NCBI GenBank assembly: GCA_964017185.1
Contig: OZ024869.1
Coordinates: forward strand, 68,790,315 to 68,854,314
DNA: 64,000 nucleotides
From: Rugalucina vietnamica
Lineage: Eukaryota > Mollusca > Bivalvia > Lucinida > Lucinidae
Reading direction: 5' to 3'
The notes below the pieces were generated by a model. That model saw only the letters and a program-made list of their open reading frames with translations. It was not told the origin of the DNA and did no database searches. The translations under genes and the position numbers were made by a program. This document shows, one piece after another, positions 375-53,727 of the stretch. The first letter of the stretch is position 1, and every line of letters starts with the position of its first letter.

Positions 375-642
375 ATTACGAAAACATGCCCATGCAATAT
401 ACAGAGATTTTTAAAGTCGTAAAAAATGAAAATTTTCATTGGAAAATTTTTGCTATTTTTGCTCAAAACATAGATTGTGGGTACACCTTAGAACCGCCTC
501 GCCGAGGCGGTTCTAACGAGTACCCACAATCTATGTTTTGGAGCAAAAATAAGAAAAATAGGTATACCCCTGCATACCCCTGTTTTGCTAAATAAAAGTG
601 GGGTTTGAGGGGGTACACATTTCACAGACATGTTTTCCTGAT
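375..642 (-). repeat. Hairpin-centred repeat family P, copy 2
   Basis: Inverted relative to copy 1. Bounded by attacgaaaacatgccc and acatgttttcctgat, which are imperfect inverted repeats of each other. The core palindrome lies at about 465-546. Confidence 0.75.
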
Positions 643-1440
643 GTTCTCAAGAAAACCAACATCATCTTGTTAAAACACCTGATAAACTGAAGATGGAATG
701 CCTATTTATTTTAAAATTAAACAATGAAAAACTCCATAAATTTGCTCAATATGTCCAGAATTTGATGCATGCCATACAACAGAAAAACATGACACAAATC
801 CCGAGCCTTAGTCTAGGTCATGAAAAATCAATAAAGTTTTATTTCTAACTTTTATGTGATAAAATGAAAAAAAAAAAAAAAAATAGAGTAAATTCTCCTC
901 ACAGCCAATAAATCTAAAGAAAAAATACATATTTGGTTGCATGCTTTCATTCATGTCCGATGTGTTTGGCTTATATATCCCATAATAGTTTCGGCCAATT
1001 TTAGGCACACCAAAGTCATGTGCCAAAACGAGGCCAAAATACAGTCTGTTTCATAGTGGTGTTGTCATTTGGTTTCATTTGAAAGCTAGATAGATAAAGC
1101 AATAAATAAGATTTTTGATAAGATTTTCTGACTTGGCATTTTTCATATAAAACAATTTAAAGCCGCAAGAAGTTTTGAAAATTCATTTTCCCTTTGACGT
1201 CAATGGTGATGTTGCCAAAAAACTGTAAAAATAATAAGATATTTTCTTTAAATAATTGCAGTCTTGAAATGCATGTATAGAATTGAATGAAAATATCTTG
1301 TTTATTGCTTTATTTATTTACCTTTCAAATAACACCAAAATCCTATAAAGCGGCTGAACAGGAGAGGCAGAATAATTTGTAAACATGAAACTACGGTGAA
1401 GTCAATGGAGATTCTGACATTGTGGACATAAATTTGGCAT

Positions 1441-1977
1441 GTCACTGCATGTTATTCTACATTTATGTTTGTCATAAAATAGCTCACATAGCCAATGTTC
1501 ATTGTTATACTATAAACAACGCTAAATAAAGTTTCTTGTACTAGTACATATCTTGTGTTCACATTTTCATAAAAGCTTAACTTGTCAGATGTCAAATCCA
1601 TAGCCAGCACTGTCAGCCACTAGCAAGCTGAAAGGAGAGTATGACACTTAATTTGCTAAATATTGAAAAATAATTTCGTGTTGGCATGTTTTTTACTTAA
1701 AGCAGTCACTGCATGTTATTCTACATTTATGTTTGTCATAAAATAGCTCACATAGCCAATGTTCATTGTTATACTATAAACAACGCTAAATAAAGTTTCT
1801 TGTACTTGTACATATCTTGTGTTCACATTTTCATAAAAGCTTAACTTGTCAGCCTGAGATGTCAAATCCATAGCCAGCACTGTCAGCCACTATCAAGCTG
1901 AAAGGAGAGTATGAGACTTACTTAATTTGCTAAATATTGGAAAATAATTTCGTGTTGGCATGTTTTTTACTTAAAGC
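1441..1977 (+). repeat. Two-copy tandem duplication, 264-bp offset
   Basis: gtcactgcatgttattctac recurs at 1441 and 1705, with near-identical sequence through to the poly-T-like gttttttacttaaagcag. The second copy has small insertions of 4-5 bp. No coding content. Confidence 0.8.
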
Positions 1978-2164
1978 AGCATGTAGCAAAAGCATTAAAA
2001 GGAAATATTCGCCAGCATGTTCCAATGTCAAATTTTGATCAAGGGAGCTGCCATATTGAATTGTGCTTACTTCACGAATGAGTGAAGTTCGGCCTAGTGC
2101 TATTTATTATTTCACTCACACAAAATGAGTGAAGTTCGGTCTACTGCTATTTATTGCAGAAGTT

Positions 2165-3312
2165 TATTTCACTCACTCACTCACTCACTCACTCACTCAC
2201 TCACTCACTCACTCACTCACTCACTCACTCACTCACTCACTCACTCACTCACTCATCTACACTCATCTACACTCATCTACACTCACTCATATTCATTCAC
2301 AAACATGGTCATTTATCTATATCCGTACTCACACAATATCCGTACTCACACAATATACATGCACACTTACTAGCGCACTCACTCACCTATCCGCTCACTT
2401 TATTTATTTAAACAATTCATTCATTCATTCATTCATTCATTCATTCATTCATTCATTCATTCATTCATTCATTCATTCATTCATTCATTCATTCATTCAT
2501 TCATTCATTACCTCACTTGCTCACTCGCCCACTGACATGATCATTGATCCATCCTTATACTCATTTACTTACACACAACTTATCCCGGTCAACTCACCTT
2601 ACTCATTCATTTTCCATCCACATACTCATATATTCACCCGTTCATTTACTCTTACTCAAATACATTTAGATACTCACTCATTTACTCACATACAACCTAT
2701 CTGGGGTAACTCGCATGCGCTCTTACTCGCTCATTCAATCATTCACTCTTGCATTCTTTCCTTCCCACTCACGCATTTACTCACTCGCAATTTGAACCTT
2801 CATCTACTCATATACCCACACTTACATGTTTAAGCACAACCAACACATTCATTCGTCCATTCGCATCCACATCGCCGCTTACCCACAAACATGAGCATTT
2901 ATCCATTCATATTTACTCACACAAAACTCAGCCGGGCATTCCACATACATGCTCATTCGCTTCATTCATTCATTCGCTTCATTCATTCATTCATTCATTC
3001 ATTCATTCATTCATTCATTCATTCATTCATTCATTCATTCATTCATTCATTCATTCATCAGCCAACACACATACACAAAAACGCACACTCACTATAACAC
3101 CCTCATACGTCCAAAATTACGCACAAAAACTGACCTGTACAACTCACATACACATTATCTCACTCATTCGCTTATCCATTCGTTCATTTTCTCCACCGAC
3201 CCACTCATACATTCACTGACTTACTCAAACACTCACTTATTCACCAACTCAAAAATGGAAAAACGTCATCTCACATACTAACATTTACACATAGCTAACT
3301 CACTCACTCACT
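2165..3312. repeat. Microsatellite field (CTCA)n / (ATTC)n
   Basis: Three pure arrays, (CTCA)n at about 2168-2253, (ATTC)n at about 2415-2510 and (ATTC)n at about 2960-3057, sit within 1.1 kb of degenerate tetranucleotides of the same composition. The open frames here are low-complexity artefacts. Confidence 0.9.
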
Positions 3313-3666
3313 CATTTAGAAAAGCATTCTTCATGTCTGTTGCTTGGCCATCCGGGATTCAACTGGTGTTTTTCCTTTGTTTCAGTTTTACAGTGGTAAG
3401 TAAGTAAATAGTTTATAAACATGCCACATGTCCATGTACAAAGCATACAAAACATGATATAAAACAATGCAATTCAGTATAAATTAAGACACACAGCCGC
3501 AAAGTTACGAGACACGCAATACAATTTACTGAGACCATTTCAAATATTACTAAATACGAGTACATGTAAATTTTATGCATATGTAAAATCTCACAAAACA
3601 TAAAACCACATATATTTTTCATATTCTTAAAATGCTTATACTACTTGTTTTCTTCTTTGCCACATG

Positions 3667-3903
3667 TCAAATAAAGTGTATGCAACAATAGGCTGTATCA
3701 GCCTGTATGTTTATATTGTTCATTAAGAATATAAATTTATTTGTAAAATTAAGAGCGTCAAAGTCTGGGTTACATAAAATGGCCCTTTGAAACAACTTTC
3801 TACGCAGGTCATCATAAAAGGGACATTCAAGGAGAAAATGTATCTCATTTTCAACAGCATATTTGCAATGAAAGCCTAGCAGTGGCGTTCTTAGGCTTTC
3901 CAT
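3667..3903 (-). pseudogene. LINE (non-LTR retrotransposon) ORF C-terminal fragment
   Basis: The minus-strand frame reads GFHCKYAVENEIHFLLECPF then YDDLRRKLFQRA. The E-x-HFLL-x-CP-x-Y-x-x-LR pattern is typical of the C-terminal tail of many LINE ORF2 proteins. No reverse transcriptase domain remains nearby, so this is a 5'-truncated relic. Confidence 0.65.
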
Positions 3904-4689
3904 GGATTTTCCACAGCCGTCGATTCCTGAACTTTTTAATGGCCACTTAGTTTATCATAATTTATTTGTTCAATGTCTCTCTACAAACAGTCTCAATAGA
4001 GACCTTGATTTGTTTGACCATGATGCTTCGTTTACTAGTCCAGGGATTCACGATTAAGATCAAACAATCAAGTGTTATGAACCACTATTGAAGTTCAGTG
4101 ATAATTAAATCGCCTGTAAAACTGGTTATGTTTTGGTGTCGATTTGTGCAATTTGTATTTTTTTGCATGTATTGATAATTTCAGTTATATTTATGCTGCT
4201 GAGTGTTCCCCTTTAGGGAAATGGCTGCTCACTCGGCTTACCGTATGTTCCCGCTGTATCAGTACCTATCTGTGATATCCTGGGCACGGAACTTTGGTTC
4301 AGTGCCTATCAACTCACCAAATACAACACAATTTTAAACAATGAAATGTAATTAGTTACAGGAAACAAATATCATTTTTTACCCTTTTCCAACACAAAAG
4401 AATGACGTCTTCTAGCGAAAAACTTCGCCCAGTCAATAGCTATGGTCATGTTGCCGGAGGTCGCATCCATTTTTTGGAGATTTCTATCCAACATTTAGAC
4501 ATCATGGCATACGTAATGCGTTGCAATGTAAACAACTAACATTTTTTTCCTAGACAGCTCAGACTATAAGTATTTTAATGTGGCAATGTTGAAATGATAT
4601 CGTTCGGCGTTGCTTGCCTTTACCAGAATGGACTGAAATAGGCCTGCTGATTGTCGGAATGGATACCCGGAATGAACTTCTGATTCAGT

Positions 4690-4900
4690 TTATTTGTTTG
4701 TTTGTGTTTGTATTGAGATTTAACGTCCCAGTCAACAATTTTCAGTCATGTCGAGGCGGAGACTCTGCTTCCTGGGCATCAACCAGTACCCTGGGGAGTT
4801 AATATGTCTTACAGGGCGCCCCGAGTGGGATGGAACCCAGGGCCTCTCGATTCGGAGTCCGATGTTTTACCACCAGCCCATCGAACTCCCTTTTGATAAG
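4690..4900 (-). mobile_element. tRNA-derived SINE copy
   Basis: Read on the minus strand, a tRNA-like head carries gactccgaatcgagag and a degenerate B box (gggttccatccc). It is followed by a body ending in sequence complementary to taacgtcccagtcaac. A similar body recurs near 10160-10340. Confidence 0.6.
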
Positions 4901-4916
4901 TTTAGAAAAAAACATA

Positions 4917-5030
4917 CAAGGGTCATCCAATAAGCTCTGACAATGGTCACTTTGGTAAGATAATTTATTCTGACTTTATACACCATTTTGGAGATATGAG
5001 ACCATCGCAGAACTTATTGGATGGCCCTCG
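4917..5030. mobile_element. Short Tc1/mariner-type MITE with TA duplication
   Basis: Ends caagggtcatccaataag and cttattggatggccctcg are imperfect inverted repeats, bounded on both sides by TA. Internal length is 114 bp with no coding capacity. It lies at the edge of the SINE copy. Confidence 0.75.
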
Positions 5031-5600
5031 TAATAAGTTAATAAACGTATGGTCTATAACACAAATTTATGCCATACGATAGTCTGTATTCTAAGTATTT
5101 TTAAGCAAGCCATGATTGATTACTATTCTTCTTCCACATCGGTGGGTCGCGCACCACACGCTACGATGTTCCCGACTTAAAACTTGTCATTTTAGATGGC
5201 TGGGACGGGAGTGTTCTTGTATATTGCCTTTGGAGACCTCTTTTATTTTACTAATCATTGCGTTTTTATAATCTATTCACCTGACAGTGATGATTTATTG
5301 AGGTTGTGGCCCGGTATTCCGAGGGCCCTATAGTCCGAGGGCCCGGTAGTCCGAGGGACCGATGGTCCGAGGGTCCGATGGTCCGAGGGCCTGATAGTCC
5401 GAGGGCCCGATGGTCCGAGGGCCCGATGGACCGAGGGCCCGATGGTCCGAGGATTTATAGAATAAATCCAATACCAATATTCTGATTCTCGGACTAGAGG
5501 GCCCTCGGACTATTGGGCCCTCGGACTATCGGACCCTCGGACTATTGGGTCTCGGACTATCGGACCCTCGGACTATCAGGATCTGCAACATTTTTCAGGT

Positions 5601-13600: not shown

Positions 13601-16600
13601 GAGTGGGGCTATGTCCAGTGCTGTAAGTACCAGTATAATATGATATGTTTTGTCATTTCTAACCAGGTATGACATAAACAATAAAATGCAGAAGCTACGG
13701 TAGTCAAGGACTTGAAATTGAGAACAGACACACAGAAATAGCAGCTATATAGACAGCTATATATTAGCTTACTTAAATACCTGTATAGCACTGTTTCTTA
13801 TCTGTGCTATTTGTTAGCTCACCTGAGCCGAAGGCTCACAAGGTGAGCTTATAGGATGGCCATGATCCGGCGTCCGTCCGTCGTCCGGCGTCCGTCCGTC
13901 GTCGTCGTCCACAATTTCAAAGATCTTCTTCTCTAAAACTGCTTGGCCGATCAAAGTGAAATTTTATGTGGAGCCTCCTTGGGTAGTGGCATTACAAGTT
14001 TGATCGCGAAATCCAGGTCACATGACCAAGATGGCCGCCACGCCCATATATGGTAAAAACCCTTCAAAAATCTTCTTCTCCAGAACCGGCAGGCCGATTT
14101 CCACGAAACTTGGTATGTAGCATCAGGGACTTCAGCCCATCATAGTTTGATAAAATGACGACCCTTGGATGACCTTGACCTATTTTACGGCAAGGTCAAA
14201 TTTGGAAACATAGGCTTTTACATGGGAAAAAGTGAAAACTATGGATTTTTTGAAAACTATTGCAGCCTGAGGCCTTAAAAGTGGTAGATGCAAACAACTA
14301 ATGGAGTAGATGAAGGTATGTGATTAATTTAGGTCAAAGTCATCTCTTGACCTTGGCCAGTCTGTTGTCCATACACACTTTTCAAAGATCTTCTTCTCTG
14401 AAACTGCTGGGCCAATCAAAGTGTAATTTTATGTGGAGCATCCATGGGTAGGGGAGACGAAAGTTTGATTGCGAAATCCAGGTCACATGACCAAGATGGC
14501 TGCCACGCCCATATATGGTAAAAACCACTCAAAAATCTTCTTCTCCAGAACCGGCTGGCCGATTTTCATGAAACTTGGTATGTAGCATTTGGGACTCCAG
14601 CCCATCATAGTTTGATAAAATGATGACCCTAGGATGACCTTGACCTAATTTACAGCAAGGTCAATTTTGGAAACATAGGCTTTAACATGGGAAAAAGTGA
14701 AAACTATGGATTTTTGGAAAACTATTGCAGCCTGATGCCTGAAAAGTGGTAGATGCAAACAACTAATGGAGTAGATGAAGGTATGTGATTAATGTAGGTC
14801 AAGGTCATCTCTTGACCTTGGCCAGTCTGTCGTCCATACACACTTTTCAAAGATCTTCTTCTCTGAAACTGCTGGGCCAATCAAAGTGAAATTTTATGTG
14901 GAGCATCCATGGGTAGGGGAGACAAAAGTTAATCGCAAAATCCAGGTCACATGACCAAGATGGCTGCCACGCCCATATATGGTAAAAACCGCTCAAAAAT
15001 CTTCTTCTCCAGAACCGGTTGGCCGATTTCCACGAAACTTGGTATGTAGCATCGCGGACTTCAGCCCATCATAGTTTGATAAAATGATGACCCTTGGATG
15101 ACCTTGACATAATTTACGGCAAGGTCAAATTTGGAAACATAGGCTTTTACATGGGAAAAAGTGAAAACTATGGATTTTTTGAAAACTATTGCAGCCTGAT
15201 GCCTGAAAAGTGGTAGATGCAAACAACTAATGGAGTAGATGAAGGTATGTGATTAATGTAGGTCAAGGTCATCTCTTGACCTTGGCCAGTCTGTTGTCCA
15301 TACACACTTTTCAAAGATCTTCTTCTCTTAAACTGCTGGGCCAATCAAAGTGAAATTTTATGTGGAGCATCCATGGGTAGGGGAGACGAAAGTTTGATCG
15401 CGAAATCCAGGTCACATGACCAAGATGGCCGCCACGCCCATATATGGTAAAAACCACTCAAAAATTTTCTTCTCCAGAACCGGCAGGCCAATATTTGCGA
15501 AACTTGGTATGTAGCATTTGGGACTCCAGCCCATCCTAGTTTGATTAAATGATGACCATAGGATGACCTTGACCTATTTACGGCAAGGTCAATTTTGGAA
15601 ACATAGGCTTTTACATGGGAAAAGGCGGAAACAATGGATATTTTGGAAACTGTTGCAGTCTGAGACCTCGAAGTTGCTAGATGCAGACAACCAATGGAGT
15701 CAATGAAGGTAAGTAATTAATGAAGGCCAAGGTCATTTCTTGACCTTGACCCAAAGTCATTTAAATATCAAAATTAAAATTGTGGTTTTCTCATAAATCA
15801 CTGGGTTTGGAAACTATTGCAGCCTGAGACCTGAAACTTTGCAGATGCAGACAACTTATGAATTCAATAAAGGTGTGTGAGTATTCAAGGTCAAGGTCAT
15901 TTCATGATGACTTAATACTGCAGGATCAGGCTTCAGGTGAGCGTTCTCAGGACCAATGGTCCTCTGGTATAGGACATGTCATCAAAAGGTAGATTTTATT
16001 TCTCGGTTCATTTTTTTATCAAAATGCTTTCAATGCTTTGACAGCTTATATTGTCCACAAATCTGCATCAGTGTTTTCTGTTACAGACATGTTCTAAATT
16101 TTTGACACTGTAAAATTGATCAGAGAATTTTTGGGCACTACAGAATTAATATTTTCAGGCCCAGTCAGTTAAAGATATGGTGGAGGAAGCTAAAAAGATA
16201 GCCGAGCCTGGATCTGAACCTGTACATAAGATGAGGAGAAAATCTATGTTTATCAGAAAAGATGGTGCCAAGAAAGCTAAAGGTATGTACAGCCTTAAAA
16301 AAGAAACAGTTAGATTTTATCATTCAGCCTTACCCCATGGAAATAGTGCACTTGAAAGCTTTGCCTGCATATGTTTTAAACAGTACATGTATTAAAAATA
16401 TGTGAGTTCATTTGTTGAATTCTGTCTAATCAGTTGTGCAATGTGTCACCACTTTATGTCATTTTCGAAAAATATTAATCCAAGTTTTCATGCACAAATT
16501 ACAATGCTTAAACAGACCATTTCTTGTTGGAAACTCTTTATGTAAACTACCCTTTCTCAAATCTGAACCATTCTAGCTGTTGGGTGAATGCAAAACAGAA

Positions 16601-34600: not shown

Positions 34601-37600
34601 TGAAATTAAGGTAGGGATAAACAGTAGTGATGTATTAAGGCAGACATATACTCTTTTTATCTTTATCTGAGTTTCAGTACAGCCACAATAGGCATATCAT
34701 GCAATGTTCTTCCATAGTTTAGTTATACAGTCCACATGAACAAATTGCCATAAGACTTAAAGTAAAGACAAAAGGGTGAAAAAAAAACAGCTATGAAAAT
34801 TATTTTGTTGACAATATTCTAACGCTTTATATACAGAAAATTGCAAGAGTTTGTTTGACCGACTGTGAATATGCATTTTCATCCCATTTTACACATATAA
34901 TATACATGCAAGAGAAACTGTGAAACTGAAAGAAAGTGCAGAGAACACAAAGACAACACCAAAGAACCACCAGCAGATTCTTTGAAATTGACTTGCTCTA
35001 CTTGCAACCAACAGTTAATAGCTAGAATTGGCCTAGTCAGCCATCAAAGGACTAACCAACGCACATGAACATCCAATATTCAAGAAATGAGCCGTCTCAT
35101 GGGAAAGCCAACAATTTGCATAGGCGAAAACAAAGGCGCAGATCAGCTTCGCGGTAACCGCGAAGCTGATCAGCGCCTTTGTTTTCGCTACACGGATAGT
35201 ACAATTCCTCTTCTTCTTAAATCCGAAATTTCAAGGTCCTAGCCTGCTTCAGTGGCTGTGCAGCCTGATTTGTGTCGGACGTTTTCGGAAACCACATTGT
35301 TGGTTTTCCCACGAGGTGGCTCAAATAATGATGGTCATTCTCATTACTGACAGACGAAAGATCACACATATAAAAGAAGTAAAGATTTATTACTTTGCAT
35401 CTTGCTATTGATTTTAACATACTGCTTTTATATTTCACCAGAGAGTAGAACCACAGGAATACAAACCTACAGCCCTTCAACTGCTGGCTGCAAAGAAAGG
35501 TAAAGAAAATTGGAGTTCTTCTTCAATCTTTTCCAATGCATTTTGAAAAATAATTACAAAACTTGCCCATGCAATATGTAGAGAATTTTTTCAGTAGCAA
35601 AAAATGAAAATTTCATCAGAAAATTTTTGATATTTTTCTTATTTTTGCTCAAAACATAGATTGTGGGTACACGTTAGAACCGCCTCGTCGAGGCGGTTCT
35701 AACGAGTACCCACAATTTATGTTTTGGAGCAAAAAATAAGAAAAATAGGTAGACCCCTGCATATCCCGGTTTTGCTATATAAAGGTGGGGTTCAAGGGAT
35801 ATACATTACACGGACATGTTTTCCTGATGTATCTCACCCAGTTGATCATATTTTGTGGGTTCCCCTTCAAATATGGTGGGACCCCCTTCAAATGGTGTTG
35901 ACTAAGTGGTACTTACAAGTTGTATTTATACCTCAACATTCATTTTGAAAACGAAATTTCGGAGAGCATCATACTCCTTGTGCACGGTGAATGAATCTCA
36001 AAGGGGCTCGTGTCAAAGGGGCTCATGTAAGCTTTCCTAGCGACCCACTGCGGTTCATAGCTCAATGAACCTCAGAAAAATTGAACACATTGCTTATATT
36101 TACATTCACTTCTTTCTCTCCCATATTGAAAAATTACTGGGCGATCACATTTACAAGCAAATAGAAATCTTACAGACAGTGTGCTCAAACAGCAGAATAA
36201 TATTGATGGTATTAATAATGTCCAATCGCATTGCCAAGAGCCATGGTTTTTGACGTCAAGTTGCTTGATCATGTGAGGTTGCATGACGTGATCAATTCAT
36301 GAAGCTATGGACTGTATTTTAGTTTTCCAGGTTCATTAAGGCATTGCATCGGAAATCATTATGAAAACATGCCCAAGCAATATAAAGAGTTTTTTTCACC
36401 TGTAAAAAATGAAAATTTCAGTAGAAAATTTTTGATGTTTTTCCTATTTTTGCTCAAAACATAGATTTTGGGTACACGTTAGAACCGGCTCGCCGAGGTG
36501 GTTCTAACAAGTACCCAAAATCTATGTTATGAAGCAAAAATAAGAAAAATAGGTATCCCCCTTTATACCCCACTTTTACTATATAAAAGTGGGGTATAAG
36601 AGGGTATACATTACACAAACATGTGATCCTGATGAATAGGTATTTCCAGTTAAAAACTTGACTATTTACATTACATTACATAACATTTTGATTTTTCTGT
36701 GATTTTCAGAGGAGCCTACACCAGCTGAACTTGCTCTGGCTGCAGGAAGAGCTTATGTCTTACTACCCAAAAAGTAAGTGGTGGGACAGGACCAAAATAT
36801 TTGAGCCACTGCATAAGAAACCCAACAAAATGCTTAGGCAAAAATAAAGGCGCAGTTCAGCTGTGCAGTTACAGAATCTGCACAGCTGATCAGCGCCTTT
36901 GTTTTCGCTACAGATAGTACAATCCCTCTCCTACTTAAATCCGAAATTTCAAGCTTCTAGCCTGCTTCTGTGCCTGTACAGGCTGGTTTGTGTCAGAGCT
37001 GGTCGGAACCCAAATTGTTTGTTTTCTCATGCACAGGCTCATTTGGAAAAATTCTTTGATTTTGGGTGTGAGTTTTTTATTGGGCATGGGAGACAGGTCA
37101 GAATTGTGCCATTTGTTGACAAACAGTAATTTGAAAGTAAATAATAAAGAATGGCATTTAGGAAATGACAGGGTGTGATTTGACTGTCTACTTTCAAAAA
37201 TAAAGAAAGATAAGGTAAGTCCAAACCTTTATTTTTTCATGAATTTTCTAGTTAGGCCTAGTTTCCACGAACAATGTTTCTTTGATGAAGATTATTTGTC
37301 ACAGAAACTTTGGCAATTGAGTTTGGCAAAGATTACTCATATTACTTAGCTCGCTCATATTTGTCGCAGATATTTGACAAAGACACTTTGCCACAGAATT
37401 GAGTTTACATGAGCATATTTTTCAGTGACAACCCTACTTTGTCAAAGAAAAAATATCCATGGAAACTAGGCCTAAGTTCTTGAACTTGAGCCTGTGCATG
37501 AGAAAAGCAACAATTTAGGTTCAGACCAGGTCTGACACAAATCGGGCTGTACAGTCACAGGAGATGGTTAGAGGCTGGAAATTTTGGATTTAGACAGTCA

Positions 37601-38440
37601 CAGGTGCAGACTAGAACATTGAAATTATGGATTTAAGAAGAAGAGGAATTGACCATCTGTGTAGCGAAAACAAAGGGGCTGATCAGCTTTGCAGTAAAGT
37701 TACTGCGAAGCTGATCTGCACCTTTGTTTTGGCCTATGCTAATTGTTGGTTTTCCCATGCGGCGGCTCATTTGTGAGTGAGCATTTAAATGACTGAATAT
37801 GTACATATAGAGGAATTTTTAATATTAGTGATAACTTTGAAATTTTTAAGGCAACAATTTTATGAGGACTAGAAATAATTCAGTTCTTTGAATATTTCTG
37901 AACTTGCAATGCAGTAGTAAGACTGGTATTTTTAGCTCACCTGAGCCGAAGGCTCACAAGGTGAGCTTATAGTATGGTAGTCAAGCCGGCGTCCGTGGGT
38001 GCGTCCGTGTGTTCACACTTTCAATCTTGAATATCTCTAAGACAACAAGGCCAATCGCAATCAAATTTTATCTGAAGCATCATTGAGGAGGGGGAAAGGT
38101 TGCAATAGGTTTTGGGACAGGTCAGATCAGAACTCTGGTTTCCATGGCAACAGATAGCTCCCATTGAGTTATAATGGGGAAAATGTTGTGGCCTCTTTAG
38201 CAATTTCATTATGTCCCCCCAACCGAAGGTGGGGGACATATTGTTTTTGGTGCGGATCCCGTCGGCGTTGGCGTCCGCGTAGCTTCTTTCCGATGCGATA
38301 TCTTTTGAACCAGTCGATGGATTTTGACCAAACTTGCATAGATACATGCATGGTTGGGAGGGGGGAAAGAGTTGATTATGTCTACCCCCGACAGGGTCGG
38401 GAGACGTATTGTTTTTCCCCGTGCGTCTGTCTGTCTGTCC

Positions 38441-38475
<35 letters not shown>

Positions 38476-41400
38476 CGTCACAAATTGTGTCCGCTGTATA
38501 ACTTGAAAACCGTTAAAGATTTTTCAATGAAACTTGGCACACTTGTAAACCACCACGAGACGATGTGCCATGCACAAGAACCATAACTCTAGCTTGAGTA
38601 TTTTTGGAGTTATTTCCCTTTGATTATTTTCTATACAATTTCGTGTCCGCTGTATAACTTGAAAACCGTTAAAGATTTTTCATTGAAACTTGGTACACTT
38701 GTAGACCACGACGAGACGATGTGTCATGCACAAGAACCATAACTCTGGCTTGAGTATTTTTGGAGTTATTTCCCTTTGATTATTTTCGATACAATTTCGT
38801 GTCCGCTGTATAACTTGAAAACCGTTTAAGATTTTTCAATAAAAGTTGGTACACTTATTGAGCATGATCAGACTATGTGTCATGCACAAAAAGCATAACT
38901 CTGGCTTGAGTATTTTATGAGTTATTTCCCTTTGATTATTTTCCATACAATTTCGTGTCCGCTTTATAACTCGAAAATCGTAAGAGTTATTTCAATGAAA
39001 CTTGGTACACTTATTAAGCACGATGAGATTACGTGTCGTGCTAAAGAACCATAACTCTTGCTTGCATATCTTTGGAGTAATTTCCCTTTGATTATTTTCC
39101 ATACAATTTCGTGTCCACCCTATAACTTGAAAACCGTAAGAGAAATTTCAATGAAACTTGGTACACTTATAAAGCATGATGAGAAGGTGTGTCATGCACA
39201 AGAATTATAACTCTTGCTTTCATATCTTTGGAGTTATTTCCCTTTGATTATTTTTCCATACAATGTCATGTCCACTCTATAACTTGAAAACCATAAGAAA
39301 TATTTCAATGAAACTTGGTACACTTATGAAGCACGATGAGATGATGTGTCATGCTAAAGAACCATAACTCTTGCTTGCATATCTTTGGAGTTATTTCCCT
39401 TTGATTATTTTTCATTCAATTTCGTGTCTGCTCCATAACTCAAAAACCATTAGAGACTTTTCAATGAAACATGGTACACTTATAAAGCATGATGCACAAG
39501 AATCATTACTCTTGCTTTCATATCTTTGGAGTTATTTCCCTTTGATTATTTTCCAAACACTTTCGTGCCCCCTCTTTAACTTGAAAACCGTAAGAGATAT
39601 TTCAATGAAACTTGGTACACTTATAAAACAGAATGACAGAATATGTGATGCACAAGAACTATAACTCTTGCTTGCATATGTTGGACATGCACATAGAAAG
39701 GGGGGGAGACATCAGTTTTCACATAGAAAACAAATTCTAGTTAGATTTTGGTGACCTTGACCTCATTTTCAAGGTCACCAGCCCATGAAAACTGATCAAA
39801 TTAGGTTTTCCGACGCGATATCTTCTGAACAAATGAATGGATTTTGACCAAACTTGCACAAGAGCATTGTTGGGAGGAGGCTCAGAGTTGATTAGATTTT
39901 GGTGACCTTGACCTAATTTTCAAGGTCACGAGTCCATAAAAACTGTTGAAATTAGTCTTTCCAACGCAATATCTTGTAAACCAATTGATGGATTTTGACC
40001 AAACTTGCACAGAAGCATTGTTGGGAGGAGGCTCAGAGTTGATTAGATTTTGGTGACCTTGACCTAATTTTCAAGGTCACGAGTCCATAAAAAATGTTGA
40101 AATTAGTCTTTCCAACGCAATATCTTGTAAACCAATTGATGGATTTTGACCAAACTTGCACAGAAGCATTGTTGCGAGAAGGCTCAGAGTTGATTAGATT
40201 TTGGTGACCTTGACCTAATTTTCAAGGTTGTGAGTCCATAAAAACTGTTGAAATTAGTATTTCCAATGCAATATCTTGACGCAAAAATCAATATTTTGTG
40301 TTGTGGCCACTCTAGCATCTTTGTTTTTCAATGGATCTTCTTCATTCTTGCAGGTAACAAGAATATCTACAATATCTCGGATGAGTTCGAATTTCGGCCA
40401 GATTTGACCTCTGACTGCGGAGTTAGCTGCCCTTTAGTGTTTGAAAAATCAATATTTTGTATTGTGGCCACTCTAGCGCCTTCAATTTTGATCGGATCTT
40501 CTTCGTTCTTGGAAGAAACAAGGATAACCATAACATCTTGGATTAGTTCGAATTTGAGCCAGATTCGACCCTGGACTGTGGAGTTAGCTGCCCTTGAATG
40601 TTTGAAAAATCAATTTTTAGTGTTGTGGCCACTCCAGCGTCTTCAATTTTGATCAAATCTTCAAAAAAAAAACAAAAAACAAAAAAAACACACACACTTT
40701 GTCCAGTGATTGTTTTTGTTGACTCTCAGGTGAGCGATCGTTGCCCTTGGGCTACTTGTTATCAAAGAATGTAATCACTGAATTTGACTGAATATGATTA
40801 CAGATTTAGCCATATTGCTTGTTTTCTTCCATAGCCACTAGACTAAGTTCTGTATTTACACTACATGTACTTTTTACTTAAGTTGTGTTGATCAAAGCAT
40901 CACGAAAACACATCCGTGTAGTGCATACCCCCTTGAACCCCACTTTTATATAGCAAAACTGGGATATGCAGGGGTGTACCTATTTTTTCTTATTTTTGCC
41001 CCAAAACATAGATTGTGGGTACCTGTTAGAACTGCCTTGGCAAGGCGGTTCTAACGTGTACCCACAATCTATGTTTTGAGCCAAAATAAGAAAAATATCA
41101 TTTTTTTTTTTCAGCTGAAAATTTTCAATTTTTAAAGCTAAAAAAATATCTGTTTATTGCATGGGCAAGTTTTCGTAATGTCTTGCCATTTTCCAGAAAG
41201 AAGAAAAAGAAGGAACCTGTCAGCATGGCCAGATTGGACGATATTGAAAGATTTCTCCGCAAGAAACCTAGAGGCTTGGAAAGATCTGAGTCTATGATGA
41301 AAGCTCCAAGACAGATAGAGAGGGAGCTTAGGGTTTCTAGGTAGGAAATTTTGGCCATTCCAAAAGTAACAAGATTTAAGGCTTTTTGACGCACAAGTCT

Positions 41401-52411: not shown

Positions 52412-53446
52412 TGATTTGCGGTATATGAAGTCCTTGATAAAGCACAAATCATTTGAGATATTCTAATAAAAAAGGTCATAATTAAAAAAATAATCATCTG
52501 CGGAATAATACCTATTCTATAATTTAAAAAAAAAAAGGAAAACGAGATCATGCATCTGCACAAACTGATCATCGATCACCCTTAAAAAATCTCGAAGTAG
52601 CTTACTGTTTTAAGCAAGTTATAATATCTGGTTGCGTGGTATTATATCAAGTTTTGCAGTAGGCAAGTTTGCAAAATCCTGAGAAAATCTAGTTTTACCA
52701 AATGTGTACAACAAACGCATAGCTGTGTAGCTTTCGCGCATTCTGATAAATATCATATATTCGGTGTTGTCTCTATTGAGCAGTATTGAGGAATCTTGTT
52801 TCTTGCATATGTCCAACCGCCGACCAGCATTAACTACGCATCTCTTCATCGTTATGTCTGTCGTTTGAAACAAAATGGAAACTCGCTATTCTTGTTGTAC
52901 ATGTTTACTTATATCAGACACGTTCCCAGGCCCGAAAACAGGCTTTCTTGCGCTGAGCCGAATATATACAGATATTTATAAAACATTGTTTTTATAGTAG
53001 ACAAACTTCGCACCCCAAGGCAAAGTGAGAAGAGGGGACAGCGGCCAGGTGGCACGAGTGACCTAAAAGGGAAAATTGAAGTACGGACATATTCGACAAA
53101 AAACTAAATACCGGGCCAAAATTAATAATAGTAACAATGCCTCTCTATAGAGAAACTTTGATAATATTTTCAACAAAAGAGAGTAAAAATCAAATACATG
53201 GGCGGATTTATCAAATAATTGCATATTCTTGACCGCAGAACCAGAAGCCGAGTAACTGTTTCCTATGGAAACAAAGGGCAGTTTTGCCAGACAGTGGCTT
53301 TAATCGGACAGAGGTTTTTGATAAAATTTGGACAAATCAAAAATAATCATTTAGAAAAACACATCGGGTGTTTTATGAATAATAGGAGCTTAAAATGACC
53401 ATTTAACCATGAAGACTGCACCTTGAGAAATTCACCAGTTTTAATC

Positions 53447-53727
53447 ATCAGGAAAACATGTCCATTAAAAGTATATCCACTTGAACCCCACTTTTATACA
53501 GAAAAACTGGGGTTTGTAGGGGTATACCTATTTGTGTTTTTTTTTTTTTCAAAACATAGATTGTGGGTACTCGTTAGAACCGCCTTGCCGAGGCGGTTCT
53601 AACATGTACCAACAATCAATGTTTGGAGCTACAGTGTAAATGATTAAAAATGTCATTCTTTTTCTTATGAAATTTTCATTTTTGCAGCTGAAAAAATCAT
53701 ATATTGTAAGAGCAAGTTTTTTGTAAT
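53447..53727 (+). repeat. Family P hairpin repeat, copy 6
   Basis: Starts atcaggaaaacatgtcc. Core ttagaaccgccttgccgagg at about 53572. Right end gcaagttttttgtaat. Confidence 0.8.

Follow-up and report, generated by a model that had tools for sequence, protein, structure and literature searches.

HINEs were defined by Thomas et al. (2014) by subterminal inverted repeats (subTIRs), a 3' palindrome, T-rich targets and the absence of target modification, and some copies carry microsatellites or tandem repeats (PMC4067079). For HINE-Mo and DINE-1, autonomous Helentron partners have been found (PMC4067079). Oyster HINEs, several of which carry GTCY-type microsatellites, were described by Vojvoda Zeljko et al. 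(2020); empty sites, some of them in repeats, are given there, whereas an autonomous partner related to them is not (PMC7492417).

The window analysed here is a 64,000-nucleotide stretch of the Rugalucina vietnamica genome. Judging from its anatomy, the element at positions 38376-39740 (the inner element) is very probably a HINE, i.e. a non-autonomous Helentron-type rolling-circle element. Published HINE anatomy agrees with the inner element in most features. Cg_HINE of the Pacific oyster shares with it a 5' subTIR with a complementary inverted repeat, a GTCY-type microsatellite, the same module order, ~140-180-bp repeat arrays, a 3' subTIR of 11-12 bp, a 3' palindrome, and insertion at TT without target site duplication, a likeness of described anatomy (PMC7492417). 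Members of Cg_HINE group 2 have end modules in common and unrelated repeats, as do the inner element and the middle element that hosts it (PMC7492417). Conserved unit order and three-deep nesting, described below for the inner family, do not feature in the Cg_HINE account as used here, and the word 'nested' has no occurrence in its main text (PMC7492417).

HINE-Mo and DINE-1 resemble the inner element in their subTIRs, in a 3' palindrome that lies 8-35 bp before the end (9 bp in the inner element), in being flanked by two or more Ts on either side, in leaving the target unmodified and in having paralogous empty sites (PMC4067079). In contrast, the 3' subTIR lies about 38-60 bp from the end in mite HINEs and stops 29 bp short of the 3' terminus in the inner element (PMC4067079). 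The bivalve Pearl elements CvA, CvE, DTC84 and MgE are similar in carrying short central arrays of ~160-bp repeats flanked by conserved end modules, a comparison made by description only (PMC7492417, PMC5139131). The inner element is a further member of a kind already described, from oysters (PMC7492417) and mites (PMC4067079), and its resemblance to the oyster elements would point to a bivalve host.

Anatomy of the inner element

The inner element and its modules are arranged as follows (window positions, strand, feature).

38376..39740, +, inner element, complete, HINE-like and non-autonomous, 1,365 bp, in the A^TT placement (TTATGTC...CTAG)
38377..38408, +, 5' module hairpin: the subTIR, then its own complementary inverted repeat
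38379..38389, +, 5' subTIR TGTCTACCCCC; the family consensus TGTCTCCCCCC is the perfect complement of the 3' subTIR
38425..38479, +, GTCT microsatellite inside the inner element
38480..39682, +, array of eight ~156-bp units, the final two shortened, in the family's commonest order, 1 to 8
39701..39711, +, 3' subTIR GGGGGGAGACA of the inner element
39715..39731, +, 3' palindrome GTTTTC-ACATA-GAAAAC, 9 bp from the element end
39737..39740, +, 3' terminus CTAG, with TT next in 36 of 38 placed copies

Family ends read TTATGTCTCCCCCC... at the 5' side and ...GGGGGGAGACATC-palindrome-CTAG at the 3' side, and from 5' to 3' the modules succeed one another as TTA, subTIR with hairpin, GTCT microsatellite, eight units, subTIR, palindrome and CTAG. 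The two subTIRs of the window copy (38379-38389 and 39701-39711) are complementary at 10 of 11 bases, a match reached by 8 of 2000 shuffled 3' ends (last 60 bp) and by 17 of 19,111 random 60-mers of the window. Folding of the 3' stem-loop was equalled by 3 of 200 shuffles and that of the 5' hairpin by 4 of 200, so that both the subTIR match and the hairpins are better than chance would give. An initial annotation of this locus had described a stem-loop and CTAG end, short subterminal inverted repeats, and a microsatellite followed by tandem units of about 155 bp. These features are borne out by the tests above, with a 156-bp array spanning 38480-39679 or 38480-39682, and the ends, stem-loop, inverted repeats, microsatellite and tandem units all recur in copies elsewhere in the genome.

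The inner element has no coding capacity, as judged from ORFs of at least 110 aa and from a Pfam scan of 8 of the 19 long ORFs in the window, which gave zero matches (E 0.01). From the array through the 3' end (38480-39740), no stop-to-stop ORF of at least 110 aa lies entirely within the element. Two ORFs, of 163 aa and 142 aa, overlap the 5' module, and the former is without a Pfam match.

Copies of the inner family across the genome

The window's own assembly (1.09 Gb, 47 contigs; the window is C1:68790315-68854314) was searched with the first 225 bp of the inner element. This yielded 1,045 first-look candidates, 40 of which were scored, the scored copies being biased to young, similar ones. 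Sequences were fetched for 38 of the 39 scored places besides the window; the omitted place (C8:31025429) matched just from query base 77. Both end modules are matched by all 38 fetched copies (blastn), a few of them partially. For example, the 3' module match reaches base 48 of 58 in L042 and is split in two around an insertion in L059, and the 5' module match starts at base 3 or 7 in L045, L066 and L074. With L074 left out, ends were placed in 37 of these 38 loci and in the window copy, giving 38 placed copies.

Boundaries are near-constant among the placed copies (TTA/TGTC...CTAG/TT), whereas the flanks differ. The three positions preceding TGTC are T in 38, T in 36 and A in 37 of the 38 copies; those following CTAG are T in 38, T in 36, and then T in 23, A in 7, G in 4 and C in 4. 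The misfits to this pattern are L042 and L045, in which the placement of the ends is uncertain or shifted. The initial annotation had called for a genome search for the same termini with independent flanks, and had named copies extending past the ends, or flanked by target duplications, as evidence against it. The termini, including the CTAG boundary, are indeed found as independent insertions in 38 placed copies, and no constant sequence beyond TTA and TT is common to them. The inner family is young and spread through the R. vietnamica genome; 8 of 38 copies have end modules equal to the consensus at ungapped positions, and the window copy differs at 2.8%.

These boundaries bear on two other readings of the element. 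A canonical Helitron has a 5' TC and a 3' CTRR and inserts between A and T. The CTAG terminus agrees with CTRR, an A precedes the 5' TTA in 27 of 38 copies and a T follows CTAG in all 38, yet an identity of this type is very unlikely: the 5' end reads TTATGTC, a 5' TC is seen in none of the 38 placed copies, and both the TT context and the subTIRs accompanied by a 5' inverted repeat are features of HINEs and Helentrons. Rearrangement of satellite arrays, by which one tandem array would interrupt another through recombination and with no transposition, would suit an element that is mostly tandem repeats and is located in a tandem array. However, the 38 placed copies have the same two ends but lie at different sites, and their array order is largely conserved, which makes such an origin vanishingly improbable.

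Searches outside this genome were also carried out. Short patterns from the 5' module gave 1, 29 and 0 loci in viral contigs; these 30 loci had no match to the window or to seven module queries (blastn, E 1e-3), and the pattern matches are therefore taken as chance. A 26-base pattern gave 0 loci in prokaryote genome contigs, and a literature text search with three short end strings of the element returned nothing related by title.

Several copies carry local changes. At first sight, L067 and L040 resembled read-through events. L067 proved to have a local ~100-bp duplication that takes in the 3' module and its flank (2041-2199). The 5' hairpin module of L040 is doubled (563-604); self-insertion is unsupported at this locus, as the right flank does not go on as family sequence. 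About 4.2 kb of other DNA lies inside the 3' module of L059 (1916-6080), and ORFs occur in the interruptions of L059, L072, L076 and L041.

Insertion site, target duplication and empty sites

The insertion lies at a junction within a ~151-bp tandem array (39741-40278), three adjoining units of which are empty sites.

39885..39902, +, uninterrupted target GAGTTGATTAGATTTTGG in the next host unit, intact; also at 40036-40053 and 40187-40204

The left flank GAGTTGA-TTA and the right flank TTA-GATTTTGG have TTA in common. Therefore, the junction slides by 3 bp, and 38376-39740, the coordinates given exactly in the initial annotation, is one of equivalent placements. The unbroken site that had been noted at about 39895 is present, in three neighbouring units (39885, 40036 and 40187) rather than one. 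It had also been proposed that the flanks rejoin to this site; the target is intact and the joined flanks align to host units with no gap at the junction, but as quoted they do not rejoin literally, and a TT(A) contained in both has to be dropped from one of them.

Part of a host unit stands on the left side of the insertion, with its homologue on the right side, so in the simplest account the array already held two or more units beforehand, which agrees with the earlier proposal of a dated insertion into a pre-existing array. Among the host units, V2 and V3 share 98% identity, and V0 and V1 diverge from that pair by 11-17%. V2 and V3 therefore separated more recently, be it before or after the insertion. 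The dating is relative only, and the similarity of V2 to V3 yields no absolute date.

Target duplication was assessed in 36 copies, with L042 and L045 excluded for uncertain or shifted ends. The lengths of direct repeats across the insertions follow those of shuffled pairs, with a few longer exceptions (a single repeat of 7 bp and two of 6 bp in the flanks, 0.1 expected each). The family inserts at TT in T-rich DNA with Ts on both sides (on the left and on the right, 38 and 36 of 38 copies for the two positions). In the clean cases described below, the empty site has one TT and the filled site has TT on each side. As almost every copy has TT to its left and to its right, insertion without target duplication, as claimed initially, holds in the sense that there is none beyond the constant TT, the longer exceptions aside. 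The inner family targets TT, and the second TT could be either element-borne or a constant 2-bp duplication.

MITEs of cut-and-paste superfamilies such as PIF/Harbinger carry terminal inverted repeats right at their ends and are flanked by a TWA duplication. The window copy has TTA on either side, and the right flank starts with TTA in 7 of 36 copies, as an element of this kind with a TTA (TWA) target duplication would predict. Nevertheless, it is extremely unlikely that the inner element is one: compared as inverted repeats, its 20-bp termini agree at just 1 to 4 of 20 positions, an A follows the right TT in only 7 of 38 copies, and the 3-bp matches number 7, the same as among shuffled pairs (7.0). 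The TTA overlap at the window copy is an accident of the target.

Empty sites were sought by querying the fetched loci and the window with 38 sequences in which the two flanks had been joined and one TT(A) taken out, and spanning matches were obtained for ten (L045, L047, L048, L049, L050, L058, L068, L072, L076 and the window copy). Paralogous sites of L058, L068 and the window copy are gapless at the join, and that of L049 has a clean join with small gaps on its left. Matches for L045 and L048 differ mainly by short gaps within or beside runs of T, with one L048 match off by 12 bases; those for L072 have small gaps close to the junction, and the L076 match is an uninformative poly-T run. The L047 and L050 matches carry indels at the junction, the L050 paralogues having ~12 additional bases, and the target may therefore have changed slightly on insertion, or mutated afterwards, at these two sites.

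The targets of the L047 and L050 insertions are homologous to a multicopy dispersed repeat, present in both orientations, which also occurs in the window (~8-642, 35561-35832, 36367-36633, 40899-41170 and 53436-53629).

Order and growth of the tandem array

Copies of the inner family carry 6 to 14 units (all 38 copies). Unit number was tallied in 31 copies shorter than 1,750 bp, with L049 and L060 set aside and the 14-unit L046 also lost to the cut; 14 of these have 8 units, 7 have 10, 5 have 9, 4 have 7 and 1 has 6. To assess order, every unit was given the type of the reference unit that it matched best, the eight-unit reference being taken from L050, the window copy, L071 or L054. The order is monotone in 32 (L050), 32 (window copy), 33 (L071) and 33 (L054) of the 37 other copies, compared with at most 1 of 7,400 shuffles for each reference. 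Inclusion of unit 1 in the search query may have selected for conservation of that unit, though not for unit order.

Additional units are mostly of types 1 and 2, namely 26 of 36 with the L050 reference, and 51 of 60 (window copy), 38 of 47 (L071) and 33 of 41 (L054) with the others, where counts are inflated because the two types are highly alike and references except L050 often swap them. Thus, across the 38 copies, the array is ordered and its growth is skewed to the 5' side. Counter to strict 5' growth, 10 of the 36 additional units found with the L050 reference are of types 3-8; with the same reference, type 4 is absent from 4 copies and type 5 from 2. Mean identity between adjacent units falls from 94.2% for the first pair to 88.6% for the third and 83-88% later, the late values being depressed by one short alignment that was apparently scored as zero.

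The monotone order, together with the excess of types 1 and 2, shows that the array is for the most part passed on as one ordered cassette, with growth concentrated towards the 5' end. A fuller reading, in which an inherited cassette of ~8 ordered units, the first two nearly alike, takes the place of a freely homogenising satellite and its 5'-skewed growth comes about through rolling-circle copying, is offered tentatively and is rather doubtful. On that reading, array length would change by slippage near the replication start, not by ordinary unequal exchange after insertion. No title among the literature matches listed was recognised as reporting conservation of unit order between copies. The ordered units serve as copy-by-copy markers, from which the ancestry of copies and the step of array growth could be reconstructed, and with them the question of where array length changes becomes testable.

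Proposed mechanism of spread

Rolling-circle transposition of the inner family is suggested by its anatomy, and the presumed enzyme is a Helentron Rep/helicase (with endonuclease) that would be provided in trans. This protein would recognise both ends of the element, i.e. the 5' hairpin/subTIR and the 3' subTIR-palindrome-CTAG. The element would then be copied via a single-stranded intermediate and join a TT of a T-rich target, with no duplication specific to the copy, and its tandem array would move as an internal ordered cassette. At 38376-39740 the target was a TT within a related element's tandem array, the neighbouring units being left as empty-site controls. This internal control and 38 more genome copies document the spread of ready-made tandem arrays, one proposed origin of satellite DNA.

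Three nested elements

Three elements are nested at this locus, the inner within the array of the middle and the middle within the outer.

38209..40278, +, middle element (host), with a related 5' hairpin module TTATGTCCCCCC and a ~151-bp array split by the inner element
37932..40758, +, outer element, a third HINE-like element that holds the other two, with a 5' TTAGCTCACCTGAGC hairpin and a 3' CTCAGGTGAGC...CTTG, then TT
40283..40662, +, the outer element's own ~161-bp array

The initial annotation had recognised one element inserted within another, but there are three rather than two, and the immediate host is apparently incomplete. The 5' modules of the middle and inner elements are 79% alike over 43 bp (E 0.006), and no match was found between their arrays. 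Downstream of a relative of the middle unit in L051 (1-138; 82% over 141 bp), seen without the 5' end of its element, come GTGGGGACATA and a GTTTTC...GAAAAC palindrome. This 3' module was not found in the host, where GGGGACAT is confined to the 5' module, and on this sequence comparison the host appears to be 3'-truncated.

The outer family has three copies in the window, starting at 13814, 37932 and 43695, whose 41-base 5' modules are all identical and whose internal arrays differ. It is probably very abundant, given 17 more matches in 250,838 bp of fetched loci. In L072 the nesting is reversed: an outer-family element (604-5277) is inserted at TTTT of an inner-family copy, with two additional Ts relative to uninterrupted copies. 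As the inner element lies inside the outer via the middle in the window, and the reverse holds in L072, the active periods of the families probably overlapped or alternated. HINE-like elements thus stack inside one another.

Just downstream of a middle-family 3' end in L051 (~345-420), a stretch resembles by eye the start of an exon (TNVYVSGLPFDITDEEF), possibly that of a Tat-SF1-like RRM protein.
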